Part shown: positions 2,705 through 56,042 of the stretch, in pieces
Layout of the letters: each line of letters starts with the position of its first letter
Position numbering within the stretch: the stretch's first letter is position 1
DNA from: Catellatospora sp. KI3
GTDB taxonomy: Bacteria; Actinomycetota; Actinomycetes; Mycobacteriales; Micromonosporaceae
Reading direction: 5' to 3'
Assembly: GCF_029948125.1 (NCBI RefSeq)
Contig: NZ_JASAMB010000001.1
Location: forward strand, 496,001-560,000
Length of the DNA: 64,000 nucleotides
Made by a program: the position numbers and the translations under genes
Notes under the pieces: generated by a model
What the model was told of the DNA's origin: nothing
Database searches by the model: none
Seen by the model: only the letters and a program-made list of their open reading frames with translations

Positions 2705-2755
2705 GGCTCCCCCTTCGCTTCCCCGAGACCCTAGCGCGCCGCCGTCACCCACCCC

Positions 2756-2823
2756 GCACTCCCGCCCACCTCGCACTCCCGCCCCCACCGCACTCCCGCC
2801 CACCTCGCACTCCCGCGCACGCC
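2756..2823. repeat. tandem repeat, four 17-bp units
   Basis: Units at 2756-2772, 2773-2789, 2790-2806 and 2807-2823, all starting GCACTCCCGC. Units 1 and 3 are identical (GCACTCCCGCCCACCTC). It lies in the gene-free interval 2705-3059, just upstream of the reverse-strand membrane gene. Confidence 0.85.
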
Positions 2824-2899
2824 GCTCCCCGCGTGGGGACATCCCGACCGCAACGCGCCCCACCAGGGCCGCCCCCCACAACACCCCGACCCCGACGCC

Positions 2900-2959
2900 G
2901 CAGTTTCGGCGAAATTGCGGCGATGCGGCGTCGAATTCGTGCAGTTTTCCCGAAACCGC
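2900..2959. repeat. 60-bp nested palindrome, family A copy 1
   Basis: Left arm GCAGTTTCGGCGAAATTGC (2900-2918), 22-bp centre, right arm GCAGTTTTCCCGAAACCGC (2941-2959). Each arm is itself a near-palindrome and the arms are reverse complements of each other. This is the most diverged of five copies in the window and the only one between divergent genes. Confidence 0.85.
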
Positions 2960-3059
2960 ACGACGCCGCTCGACGCGACCCGGGGCGGGGGGACGCGGTG
3001 TGTCACGTCTTGAGGACCGGGGGTAAGGGCTGGTGGGGCGGCCCGGTACATTGCCGGGC

Positions 3060-4004
3060 ATGCGAGGTCTGCTCGTCGTGAACCCGAAGGCCACCACCAC
3101 CAGCGCGCGCACGCGGGACGTGCTCGCCGATGCGCTGCGCAGCCGGATGGACCTGACCATGGGCTACACCCGCCGCCGGGGGCACGGGTTCGACCTGGCC
3201 CGCGACGCGGCGACACAGGACATGGACGTGGTGGTCGCCCTGGGCGGCGACGGCACGGTCAACGAGGTCGTGAACGGCCTGATGGCCGCGGAGCGCGGCG
3301 ACCGGACCCCGGCCCTGGCCGTGGTCCCCGGCGGCTCCACGAACGTGTTCGTACGGGCGCTGGGCCTGCCGCGCGCCCCCGTGGACGCGACGGCCGTCAT
3401 CCTGTCGGCGCTGCGCGCCGGCCGGTCCCGCCGGGTGGGCCTGGGCCGGGCCGACGACCGCTACTTCACCTTCTGCGCCGGGCTGGGGCTGGACGCCGCC
3501 GTCGTGCGCCGGGTGGAGCAGGCACGCCGCAAGGGCCGCCGCTCGACTCCGGCGCTCTATCTGCGCTCGACGCTGGGCCAGTACTTCTTCGATTCGGGCC
3601 GCCGCAAGCCTGGGCTGACCCTGACGGAGCCGGGCGAGGACGCCGAGAACGGGCTGGCGAACGTGATCGTGCAGAACACCGCGCCGTGGACGTACCTGGG
3701 TGAGCGGCCGATCCACGCGAGCGCCCGCGCTTCGTTCGACACGGGACTGGACGTGCTGGCGCTCAGGGCCCTCCACCTGCCCAGTACCCTTCATACGGTC
3801 ACCCAGATGCTGTCCCGTCAGCCGGACGATCCCGCCGATCGATCAGACATGGACGGCGACAAGGTGATGATCCGCCACGACTTGGCGGAATTCGAGGTCC
3901 ATTGCGACACCCCGCAGGCATTCCAACTGGACGGCGACTATCTCGGTGAGCGCGAAAAGGTGAAATTCACCTCGGTACCGGGTGCCCTGCGCGTAATCTG
4001 CTAA
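3060..4004 (+). CDS. diacylglycerol/sphingosine kinase-family lipid kinase
   Basis: Member of the DAGK catalytic superfamily (YegS/BmrU/LCB5 type), 314 aa, expected to phosphorylate a lipid hydroxyl with ATP at the inner membrane face. The nucleotide-binding signature VVALGGDGTVNEVVNG starts near residue 58 and the second loop is VVPGGSTNVFVRALGLPR. The C-terminal beta-sandwich ends with FQLDGDYLGEREKVKFTSVPGALRVI, typical of the family. The ATG at 3060 is preferred over GTG 3033, since only from 3060 does the homologous MRGLLVVNPKA begin. Substrate cannot be told from sequence; phosphatidylinositol-related and diacylglycerol kinases both look like this. Confidence 0.85.
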   Translation: MRGLLVVNPKATTTSARTRDVLADALRSRMDLTMGYTRRRGHGFDLARDAATQDMDVVVALGGDGTVNEVVNGLMAAERGDRTPALAVVPGGSTNVFVRALGLPRAPVDATAVILSALRAGRSRRVGLGRADDRYFTFCAGLGLDAAVVRRVEQARRKGRRSTPALYLRSTLGQYFFDSGRRKPGLTLTEPGEDAENGLANVIVQNTAPWTYLGERPIHASARASFDTGLDVLALRALHLPSTLHTVTQMLSRQPDDPADRSDMDGDKVMIRHDLAEFEVHCDTPQAFQLDGDYLGEREKVKFTSVPGALRVIC

Positions 4005-12975: not shown

Positions 12976-13001
12976 CCCGGCGCGCCCCCACCCGGGCAGG
13001 C

Positions 13002-13037
13002 GACACCCCCGGCGACAGGCGGGTCGCCGGGGGTGTC
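13002..13037 (+). terminator. strong hairpin terminator after the TPR gene
   Basis: Perfect 14-bp stem, GACACCCCCGGCGA (13002-13015) with 13024-13037, 8-nt loop, between convergent genes. Confidence 0.8.
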
Positions 13038-13047
13038 AGGTCTTGCT

Positions 13048-13107
13048 GCAGTTTCGGGGAAACTGCTGGAATTCGAGCCCGGATTGCTGCAGTTTCCCCG
13101 AAACTGC
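13048..13107. repeat. 60-bp nested palindrome, family A copy 2 (best copy)
   Basis: Left arm GCAGTTTCGGGGAAACTGC (13048-13066), right arm GCAGTTTCCCCGAAACTGC (13089-13107), exact reverse complements. Each arm is an 8-bp inverted repeat around 3 bp. It lies between the terminator of the TPR gene and the 3' end of the convergent MFS gene. Confidence 0.92.
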
Positions 13108-13144
13108 AGCGATCCGTAGCCCCGCCGCGGCAGCGGCGCGCGGG

Positions 13145-35438: not shown

Positions 35439-35509
35439 CCCCGAGCCGCCCGACGCCACATCGCCCCGCGCCACGTCGCCCCGCGCACGTCGCGCACCGG
35501 GTGTTGGCT

Positions 35510-35569
35510 GCAGTTTCGGGGGAACTGCACGAATCCCAGCCAAGATTCCTGCACTTTCCCCGAAACTGC
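35510..35569. repeat. 60-bp nested palindrome, family A copy 3
   Basis: Arms GCAGTTTCGGGGGAACTGC (35510-35528) and GCACTTTCCCCGAAACTGC (35551-35569) with a 22-bp centre that itself carries GAATC/GATTC. Downstream of xylB. Confidence 0.9.
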
Positions 35570-35572
35570 ACG

Positions 35573-35657
35573 CACTCCGCGCGTACGGAGTGCGCACGCA
35601 CTCCGCACGTACTCTCGCGCGCCCGCGGCTACCCGGAAGGTCCCGGGCGCGCGAGTA
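35573..35657. terminator. two hairpins downstream of xylB
   Basis: CACTCCG/CGGAGTG at 35573-35592, then CGCGCGCCCG (35616-35625) with CGGGCGCGCG (35644-35653), extended by TACT/AGTA. They directly follow the family A copy and precede the hydrolase gene. Confidence 0.6.
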
Positions 35658-35726
35658 TTCCCACCTGCGGCGCGACTGGTGAACTTGCCGATGCCGAGTC
35701 GGTCCGGTGGCGGCGAAACTTCGGCG

Positions 35727-36491: not shown

Positions 36492-36501
36492 CCGGGAGAA
36501 A

Positions 36502-36547
36502 GGAAGGGGCCCTTCTTATCGCATTCCGTATAAGAAGGGCCCCTTCC
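36502..36547. repeat. 46-bp perfect inverted repeat, family C copy 1
   Basis: Arms GGAAGGGGCCCTTCTTAT (36502-36519) and its exact complement at 36530-36547; loop CGCATTCCGT. It lies between convergent genes and can act as a terminator in both directions. The same element, inverted and diverged, is at 55895-56042. Confidence 0.9.
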
Positions 36548-36582
36548 CAACCCGCGGAGCGGGGCGTGGCGGGCGGACCGGG

Positions 36583-41612: not shown

Positions 41613-41613
41613 C

Positions 41614-41694
41614 CAAGATCCACTAAGTTGCCGGGAAATCGGGCGCAATCAAGCGCAAGATACGCCCGATTGCCCGGCAACTCGAACGATCTTG
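41614..41694. repeat. 81-bp two-block inverted repeat (family E)
   Basis: Outer arms CAAGATC (41614-41620) and GATCTTG (41688-41694); inner arms AGTTGCCGGGAAATCGGGCG (41626-41645) and its complement with one mismatch (41663-41682); both 5-bp gaps line up. Together with family A copy 4 it fills the gene-free interval 41613-41940. Probable terminator of the ROK gene. Confidence 0.88.
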
Positions 41695-41796
41695 ACGCGG
41701 GCAACCCGCGCACGGCCGGCCCACGCCGCCAGCTCGCCCCGCCCCCGCCCCCGCCCCGATGCCCGCTGCTGGCCGCCCCCCTGCCCGCGGGTTCGT

Positions 41797-41856
41797 GCAG
41801 TTTCGAGGAAAGTGCGGGAATCTTGGCCCGCTTTCGTGCAGGTTCCCCGAAACTGC
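41797..41856. repeat. 60-bp nested palindrome, family A copy 4
   Basis: Arms GCAGTTTCGAGGAAAGTGC (41797-41815) and GCAGGTTCCCCGAAACTGC (41838-41856), centre 22 bp beginning GGGAATCTTGGCC. Confidence 0.9.
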
Positions 41857-41940
41857 ACGAACCATCCGCCGCGCGAGGCGGTGCGGGTCGGGGTGGCGGG
41901 TCGTTGAAAGGGTGTAAGTCGTAAATACGGCGTTAATGGA

Positions 41941-42969
41941 GTGCGGCAAGCAATGGGCGACGAGCGGCCGGTCTTCGTCGTGGGCTGTCCCCGGTCGGGG
42001 ACCACGATGCTGCAGCTCATGCTGCATGCCCATCCCCGGATCGCGATCCCGCCGGAGACCCGGTTCCTGCTGAAGGCCTACGCCGAGCGGGAGCGGTACG
42101 GCGACCTCGCCGACCCCGCCAACCGCCGCCGGCTCGCCCAGTGGATCACCACGGGCAGGACCGCCTTCGCCGACCTGGGACTGGACCCGGGCGCCGTGGT
42201 CGAGGAGGTCGTCGCGGCGGGGCCGACCCTGGGCAGCGCCCTCGGCGCGGTGTTCCGGGCGTACGCGGCGCGGTTCGGGAAGGTCCGGTGGGGTGACAAG
42301 CGGCCGGCGTACCTGAACAACCTGGATGTGGTGCGGCGGCTGTTCCCGGACGCGCAGATCGTCAACATCGTGCGCGACGGCCGCGACTGCATCGCCTCGA
42401 TCCGCGAGACCCCCTGGTACGACAAGGACATCTGCCTGGCCGTCTCGGACTGGGCGCGGGCCATGGACAGCTCGGCGCGGGCCCGGCGCACGCTGCCCCC
42501 GGACTCCTACCACGAGCTGCGCTACGAGGAGCTGGTCGCCGAGCCGGAGCCGGTGCTGCGGCGGCTGTGCGCGTTCCTGGGCGAGGCCTACGATCCGGCG
42601 ATGGCCGAGCCCGCCCGCGTGGCGGAGGTGGCCGTGCCCAGCCGCAAGAGCTGGCACCGGCTGACCCGGGAACCGGTGACCAGCCAGCGGGTCGGCAGCT
42701 GGCGGGAGCGGCTGCAGCCGTGGGAGATCGCGCTGTGCGAGGCGGTGGCGGGGCGGCACCTGACCGGGCAGGGCTACCAGCTGTCGGTGGGCATCCCGTC
42801 GGTATGGCACGGGCAGGCCCTGCGGCACCGGTTGCACTACCCGTTGCACGACGCCCCACGTTGGACACTGCCCGCCCGGCGGATGGCCACCGGCCTGCGG
42901 GAACGCTTCGCCGCGCCGGAAGCCCTGGCGTACGAGGCGAGCCGGGCGGCGCAGGTCCCTTCGCGATGA
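41941..42969 (+). CDS. PAPS-dependent sulfotransferase
   Basis: A 342-aa sulfotransferase of the bacterial Sulfotransfer_1/3 type. The 5'-phosphosulfate loop is VGCPRSGTTMLQLMLHAHP near residue 14; the 3'-phosphate region is IVNIVRDGRDCIASI. YHELRYEELVAEPEPVLRRLCAFLG is the usual C-terminal signature. Cytosolic. GTG 41941 is used; ATG 41953 also fits and has no better ribosome site. Acceptor unknown. GC content and codon use are like its neighbours. Confidence 0.85.
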   Translation: MRQAMGDERPVFVVGCPRSGTTMLQLMLHAHPRIAIPPETRFLLKAYAERERYGDLADPANRRRLAQWITTGRTAFADLGLDPGAVVEEVVAAGPTLGSALGAVFRAYAARFGKVRWGDKRPAYLNNLDVVRRLFPDAQIVNIVRDGRDCIASIRETPWYDKDICLAVSDWARAMDSSARARRTLPPDSYHELRYEELVAEPEPVLRRLCAFLGEAYDPAMAEPARVAEVAVPSRKSWHRLTREPVTSQRVGSWRERLQPWEIALCEAVAGRHLTGQGYQLSVGIPSVWHGQALRHRLHYPLHDAPRWTLPARRMATGLRERFAAPEALAYEASRAAQVPSR

Positions 42970-46252: not shown

Positions 46253-50387
<4,135 letters not shown>

Positions 50388-52429: not shown

Positions 52430-52444
52430 CCTGACCGCGAAGAA

Positions 52445-52483
52445 CCCGGAGCGGTGCGGCCGTCCAGGCCGCACCGCTCCGGG
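52445..52483 (+). terminator. strong terminator of the FG-GAP gene
   Basis: Perfect 17-bp stem CCCGGAGCGGTGCGGCC (52445-52461) with 52467-52483, 5-nt loop. Confidence 0.9.
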
Positions 52484-52492
52484 CTGCTCCGG

Positions 52493-52552
52493 GCAGTTTC
52501 GGGGAGACTGCTGGAATCTTGGCGGGCATTCGCGCAATTTCCCCGAAACTGC
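52493..52552. repeat. 60-bp nested palindrome, family A copy 5
   Basis: Arms GCAGTTTCGGGGAGACTGC (52493-52511) and GCAATTTCCCCGAAACTGC (52534-52552), 22-bp centre TGGAATCTTGGC and on. The gene-free interval 52430-52741 holds this copy and two terminators; nothing else is seen. Confidence 0.9.
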
Positions 52553-52601
52553 AAGATCGACACCCGATCTACGCGCGATCGACGCGCGATCACATACGGA
52601 T

Positions 52602-52633
52602 GCGGGGGTACGGGCCGAAGCCCGTACCCCCGC
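52602..52633. terminator. bidirectional terminator before GH48 3' end
   Basis: Perfect 14-bp stem GCGGGGGTACGGGC (52602-52615) with 52620-52633 and CGAA tetraloop, between convergent genes. Confidence 0.88.
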
Positions 52634-52741
52634 GTTCCCACCTGCGAGAGGGTCTGTCCGGTCCCGGCGGCCCGCCCGCCGGAGCAGGCTGCCGGGACCA
52701 CGCCCGGCCGTCAGGCCGGGCTGTCCAACTCCCGGACGGCG

Positions 52742-55894: not shown

Positions 55895-56042
55895 GGAAGG
55901 GCCCCTTCTTATCGCATTACGTAGAGGAAGGGCCCCTTCTTAACGGCCGCCACGGCGGCGCCCGCGCACCCTGCAACTCCCTCCGGCGCCAGGTTGGGAA
56001 GGGACCCTTCTACTACGGAATGCGATAAGAAGGGGCCCTTCC
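55895..56042. repeat. family C elements, copies 2 and 3 in inverted orientation
   Basis: Copy 2 (55895-55942) reads GGAAGGGCCCCTTCTTA, CGCATTACGTA, then GGAAGGGCCCCTTCTTA again. Copy 3 (55997-56042) reads on the other strand GGAAGGGCCCCTTCTTAT, CGCATTCCGTA and a diverged arm. 54 bp lie between them. This fills the 376-bp space 55691-56066 together with the GH48 leader. Confidence 0.85.

Follow-up and report, generated by a model that had tools for sequence, protein, structure and literature searches.

The stretch of DNA analysed here, hereafter the window, comprises 64,000 nucleotides of Catellatospora sp. KI3 (genome G000; 8,216,147 bases in 96 contigs) and is included in C1:1-800000, below called the 800-kb region. 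Five copies of a 60-bp palindrome, designated family A, lie in the window (Table 1). All five were recovered where a preliminary description of this DNA had placed them, each with the 19-22-19 geometry of arm, centre and arm that it had reported; the arm sequences it quoted are exact for copy 2 only, the other four copies differing at two to four of 38 arm positions. Its statement that none of the five lies in a gene agrees with the calls of our home-made, unvalidated gene finder, which predicts 659 genes in 800 kb. Rfam (release 15) returned no match at the gathering score in the window.

Table 1. Family A copies, the family B core and separate hairpins in the window
Feature	Position	Strand	Context
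Family A copy 1	2900..2959	-	gap 2705-3077, divergently called genes; orientation from two-orientation model
Family A copy 2	13048..13107	+	gap 12976-13144, convergent genes
Family A copy 3	35510..35569	+	gap 35439-35726, co-directional genes
Family A copy 4	41797..41856	-	gap 41613-41952, co-directional genes; family B copy in same gap
Family A copy 5	52493..52552	-	gap 52430-52741, convergent genes
Family B core	41625..41683		59 bp, inside AAGATC...GATCTT frame
Separate hairpin	13001..13038		10 bp before copy 2; also in orthologous gap of G118 and G123
Separate hairpin	52443..52485		8 bp before copy 5

Other palindromes share the window. A third palindromic repeat of about 48 bp (AGGAAGGGsCCCTTCTTATCGC...) occurs at 36501-36548 and 55997-56042; its cluster has 23 members in 800 kb of G000, eight in 600 kb of the relative G118 and eight in 200 kb of the relative G051. 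A further family, with TCGATCATGAACTTATGG arms and a length of 55-67 bp, is represented at 2019-2079, and the same clustering finds seven members in 800 kb of G000 and two in 600 kb of G118. There is also a 34-bp hairpin at 47428-47461, present at the apparently matching place in G118 and G051 as well, which is probably an old terminator or attenuator.

Family A is abundant and rigid in length. The 800-kb region contains 53 places at which 27-36 of the 36 arm positions counted are matched, well separated from the next best place (23) and from the maximum of a reversed-sequence control (22). Of 50 pairs of strong arms (each matching at least 15 of 18 positions), all 50 are spaced 41 bp apart, and no other spacing below 300 bp occurs in the region. 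The total length is exactly 60 bp in 52 of the 53 copies, the exception being a 59-bp copy at C1:179500, and solo arms are almost absent (three weak matches, 14 of 18 positions, in 800 kb), a result that speaks against sites for a protein that binds single arms. A relaxed arm pattern matches the whole genome 608 times in forward and 601 times in reverse orientation, with no match in the reversed control. Extrapolated from these arm counts, with the 53 copies of the 800-kb region as calibration (3.77 matches per copy), family A is estimated at about 320 copies in the 8.2-Mb genome. This exceeds by far the ten or so copies that the preliminary description had set as a threshold for its REP/BIME-like reading, a reading upheld by a high-copy, intergenic palindrome with fixed length. 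None of the three outcomes it had named as refuting, which were few copies, freely varying length and arms without covariation, was observed. No regular spacing of copies along the contig was seen (CV 0.80). In a species-wide collection, which may lack the record of G000 itself, the exact repeat pattern found 16 matching stretches, all of them in C. tritici.

Conservation extends over 62 columns, one base more on each side (T...A), and drops sharply beyond. The repeat is not a strictly symmetric palindrome: a two-orientation model reaches a log-likelihood of -1120, compared with -1185 to -1192 in ten randomised sets, so that the centre has a direction. The oriented consensus is TGCAGTTTCGGGGAAAGTGCACGAATnCGGnCCAAGATTCCTGCACTTTCCCCGAAACTGCA. 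Because the repeat is oriented, there is a deficit of Watson-Crick pairs at 16-45, 21-40 and 28-33, which are found in 25, 16 and 5 of 52 copies versus 27.7, 25.2 and 14.9 expected from independent columns; mismatches are therefore frequently retained in the long stem, and at 21-40 as many as 36 of the 52 copies form no standard pair. Strand-marking stem mismatches are the kind of feature that REP and attC hairpins have. RNA folding gives one long hairpin in all 52 full-length copies, with a mean of -38 kcal/mol. The unit may be pictured as 62 bp in which two 19-bp arms in inverted orientation, both of them dyads in themselves, flank a short, variable, oriented centre, and which as single-stranded DNA or RNA would form one long hairpin.

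Does the structure itself show compensatory change? Within G000 the signal for the long hairpin is weak: seven pairs have two-sided changes, a number reached by two of 500 shuffles, and the share of paired cells stays at the shuffle level (90.5% versus 90.2%). The arm dyads show no covariation above shuffles (5 pairs versus 5.0), and arm hairpins were rejected as a constraint inside this genome. To look further afield, a model named R1 was built from family A copies; it selects for the long hairpin and not for the arm dyad. R1 matches 26 of 121 genomes of the family searched, comprising all eight Catellatospora genomes, with at least 43-44 matches each, and 18 of 113 genomes of other genera, with 1-17 matches. 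Across the class, 4 of 197 genomes match: G000, one of the same family and two weak others. Of the 18 loci in other genera, two were dropped as length outliers, and the remaining 16, which represent 11 genera, entered the cross-genus comparison. Here the long hairpin is 92% paired versus 65.6% in shuffles, with 86 two-sided cells versus 21.9, counts that lean its way because R1 selects for that hairpin. The arm dyad, absent from R1 although likeness to the family A sequence was in the model, is 78% paired versus 65.8%, with 30 two-sided cells versus 12.3. Moving the dyad centre one step lowers pairing to 46.9% versus 45.7% in shuffles; moving it the opposite way gives 50.4% versus 45.4%, which also lies above all 500 shuffles. 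The covariation whose absence would have counted against the preliminary description is, for the long hairpin, strong across the 16 loci of other genera and weak inside G000. The two-headed form proposed earlier is partly supported, with compensation in the arm dyads across genera but none within G000, where every full-length copy is predicted to fold as a single hairpin. Changes that look compensatory could also arise by correction inside a palindrome.

The placement of family A is strongly biased towards gene ends, a property on which the preliminary description had asked for data. By the same gene finder, 51 of the 52 full-length copies in 800 kb are intergenic and one is inside a predicted gene; 22 occupy convergent gaps, 24 co-directional and 5 divergent ones. 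Intergenic space overall is 17% convergent and 32% divergent, and the excess of convergent copies (22 of 27 among convergent and divergent ones) has a binomial p of 1.2e-6. Between co-directional genes the repeat shows no clear strand preference (14 same, 10 opposite). In G000, 3' ends are generally marked by strong hairpins, which occur in 55 of 62 convergent gaps without family A, as compared with 16 of 117 divergent gaps and 21 of 252 shuffled convergent gaps. Another hairpin is rarer where a convergent gap holds family A (12 of 22, p 0.0014; 18 of 22 by a laxer criterion), and in co-directional gaps the corresponding figures are 7 of 25 with the repeat and 100 of 203 without (p 0.056). The median distance from stop codon to hairpin is 37 bp for family A and 17 bp for other hairpins. 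Uridine enrichment 3' of the family A hairpin is absent (1.08 T per 12 nt versus 1.66 expected); of the canonical features of an intrinsic terminator, the GC-rich hairpin past the stop was thus found and the U-tract was not. A second hairpin stands beside the repeat in four of the five window gaps, and those preceding copies 2 and 5 are likely native terminators. Insertion directly beside other hairpins was considered and gave no clear adjacency: of 47 3'-type gaps with family A, 14 hold another exact hairpin, and in these the median distance is 34 bp versus 53.5 at random, and 21% versus 15% lie within 12 bp.

G118 and G123 are nearly collinear with the G000 contig; their identity to it, measured on a test stretch of 4.5 kb, is about 90% and 92%, respectively. 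Copies per Mb number 66 in G000, 40 in G118, 30 in G123 and 5 in G051, the last figure being one copy in 200 kb. Of 462 gaps, 307 were mapped in G118, 294 in G123 and 78 in G051, in a comparison that favours G000, since both its gene calls and its search pattern derive from that genome. Among the 281 gaps mapped in both G118 and G123, the repeat is present in all three genomes in 9, in G000 only in 11, in G000 and G118 in 5, in G000 and G123 in 4, in G118 only in 1 and in none in 251. The window reflects this range. Copy 1 is likewise found in the orthologous gaps of G118 and G123, copy 2 in no orthologous gap of G118, G123 or G051, and copy 3 also in G123, with none in G118 or G051. At copy 4, the G123 gap carries family B and an apparently decayed family A; copy 5 is present in G118 by alignment, the anchor method having mapped its gap in none of the relatives. 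Shared sites are inherited, because orthologous centres are more alike than non-orthologous ones, at 17.1 versus 12.3 of 22 positions for G123 (14 pairs, 0 of 5000 permutations) and 14.6 versus 13.0 for G118 (16 pairs, p 0.003). Copies restricted to G000 are not clearly younger by arm mismatches, which average 1.4 in G000-only copies (n=10), 2.2 in those shared by all three species (n=9) and 0.8 in those shared by two. No clean insertion or empty site with a target-site duplication was seen in the nearest genomes, which at roughly 90-92% identity have intergenic DNA too diverged for such sites to be recognised reliably. Where G000 has the repeat and a relative does not, hairpins are about as frequent as in other gaps in G118 (9 of 15 versus 97 of 181) and G123 (9 of 16 versus 82 of 175); such gaps in G051 are richer (8 of 9 versus 18 of 43, p 0.024).

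Family B is a sister palindrome whose core is 59 bp with a 19-21-19 geometry, one extra centre base occurring in 1 of the 37 copies found. Exact AAGATC and GATCTT elements, 67 bp apart, enclose it in nine cases, out of 11 framed palindromic cores detected in all. As a family-wide marker the AAGATC-N-GATCTT pattern was rejected: it matched all 121 genomes, unusually often G061 (196) and G009 (129), and many of the matches listed look coding, so the frame is used only locally here. In other genera, loci L124, L128, L132 and L133 are 62-63-bp palindromes with very different arms and the same outer frame. Family B numbers 8.8 copies per Mb in G000, 25.0 in G118, 21.7 in G123 and 10 in G051. Considering 3'-type gaps in which the relative lacks family A, and comparing them with gaps that lack it in G000, family B sits in the relative at G000 family A sites in 6 of 15 cases versus 3 of 194 for G118 and 6 of 17 versus 2 of 186 for G123 (p about 3.5e-6 each). 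In contig gaps 179236, 323148 and 641217, the GATC frame stands on one or both sides of family A in G000 and around family B in the relatives. Both relatives have family B, and G000 has family A alone, in these three gaps and in 626442, so the simplest account is that the G000 line changed from B to A. The pattern has exceptions: both families occur in G000 at 537613 and in G118 at 223931, and the family B match at 495096 is weak. A replacement of B by A in place can be argued from these alignments; it is not proven, because the offsets of the two inside the gap are unequal at several sites and hairpins in general are no commoner at G118 and G123 sites lacking family A.

The link to a RAYT/Y1 transposase suggested earlier did not hold. 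The PF01797 profile (Y1/RAYT), the sole transposase family searched, has no match in G000, G118, G123, G016 or G087, whereas the control search recovered it from five of 14 reference genomes; its absence argues against RAYT-driven spread from G000. It does match 6 of the 11 Catellatospora genomes searched, and Y1 transposase-like genes were noted at L152, L153, L156, L158 and L259 in other members of the genus. Among the matches listed for these congeners, the open frame spans 150-157 codons in four, the others being short or fragmentary. Such a length is that of an IS200-type TnpA rather than a RAYT, which suggests that the genes of these four congeners belong to the former.

In architecture and placement, family A is REPIN-like. 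As in the REPIN/BIME elements of Gammaproteobacteria (doublet definition from PMC8049555), two inverted dyad-like units enclose a short, highly diverse spacer and form one long hairpin; intergenic copies exceed 100 and singlets are rare. It differs in that its genome and nearest relatives lack a PF01797/RAYT match, in that its consensus starts with TGCAG and lacks the GTAG/GTGG REP foot (compared through the REP table of PMC2817692), and in sharing frame and centre with a second palindrome family. Failing on transposase and foot, it is not classed as a RAYT-dependent REPIN. Like MITEs, family A is short, non-autonomous, high in copy number and bounded by inverted repeats, but no target-site duplication was seen against relatives about 90-92% identical; nor did solo arms around a longer insert, as in an autonomous element with family A ends, appear in 800 kb of the 8.2 Mb. 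ERIC, NEMIS, BOX and the SLS families (Cozzuto et al. 2008) are likewise short, structured intergenic repeats with tens to hundreds of copies, and that stem-loop survey (PMC2267715) counts 92 families, 41 of them intergenic; family A has another sequence, an exact length of 60 bp and, in the genomes searched, a range confined to Micromonosporaceae. With the I-shaped (U-lacking) terminators of GC-rich bacteria it has in common a strong hairpin without U-tract past stop codons, often between convergent genes; unlike them it is one shared 62-bp sequence in hundreds of copies, often accompanied by a second hairpin, and its part in termination is putative. An 'intergenic motif' of Actinoplanes was dropped as a comparison, the phrase being absent from the available part of PMC5526262. 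Titles and abstract openings yielded no description of the repeat, and four arm strings had no match in the paper texts searched. Structured repeats of a REPIN-like kind are known; the particular variant represented by family A appears to be new.

Could selection at transcript ends explain the copies? A termination role is plausible, and family A may act as a terminator at some sites, but it is not the general one, being farther from the stop, lacking U enrichment and having a second hairpin in most window gaps. The stronger proposal, that the copies are primarily bidirectional, U-tract-less terminators or 3'-end protectors selected at transcript ends, draws on their placement, on the strong hairpins that mark 3' ends generally, and on the lower frequency of another hairpin in convergent gaps that hold the repeat. 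The missing U-tract does not defeat it, for in S. clavuligerus 353 of 535 transcript ends classed as highly structured are without one (PMC8269248). Still, more than half of those convergent gaps keep another hairpin, gaps missing the repeat are richer in hairpins in G051 only and not in G118 or G123, and selection alone does not explain one common 62-bp sequence; together with distance and base composition, these points leave the proposal unlikely.

An ancestral RAYT, recently lost from the lineage, might instead have left a REPIN population behind. Architecture and abundance fit, and RAYT duplicates REPINs, which E. coli genomes without it still keep (both from PMC8049555). Yet among the four species sampled, the three with the highest density, G000, G118 and G123, all lack a PF01797 match, the four longer Y1 genes of other Catellatospora are unlike a RAYT in length, and the consensus has no GTAG/GTGG foot, so that we regard such a loss as distinctly improbable. 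Less credible still is a nucleoid or regulatory protein that binds the paired arms, with the copies as putative binding sites throughout the genome. The constant 41-bp arm spacing, about four helical turns, and the dyad nature of the arms, which may loosely resemble ParB/Noc-type sites, speak for it; irregular contig spacing, a more than tenfold difference in density between congeners (with a small G051 sample), the strong 3'-end bias and compensation over the whole 60 bp, which points to a folded strand, speak against it.

We favour, with a probability of roughly 0.6, the reading that family A is a non-autonomous, REPIN-like repeat spread by a route other than Y1 and retained where a hairpin at the 3' end does no harm or is of use. 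It would have multiplied in Catellatospora independently of any Y1/RAYT encoded in the genome today, through another enzyme or through palindrome cleavage and repair from another copy, and would have gained at least partly at the expense of family B. It would persist chiefly a short distance beyond stop codons, in positions at which a strong hairpin may be harmless or may end or protect transcripts arriving from either side. A bolder extension, which we consider unlikely, is that Micromonosporaceae harbour a superfamily of double palindromes framed by GATC, with cores that are swapped as cassettes. In an intergenic slot one family would overwrite another and leave the outer AAGATC...GATCTT frame intact; the agent might be cruciform cleavage followed by repair from an ectopic copy, with no transposase involved.

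The current explanation of REPINs invokes a resident RAYT, and a dense REPIN-like population in which no Y1 was found calls for some other way of copying. That families A and B are associated at orthologous gaps offers a natural test of what fills hairpin slots at transcript ends: transposition, gene conversion or selection for termination. If cassette exchange were true, hairpins at transcript ends would evolve through concerted conversion.
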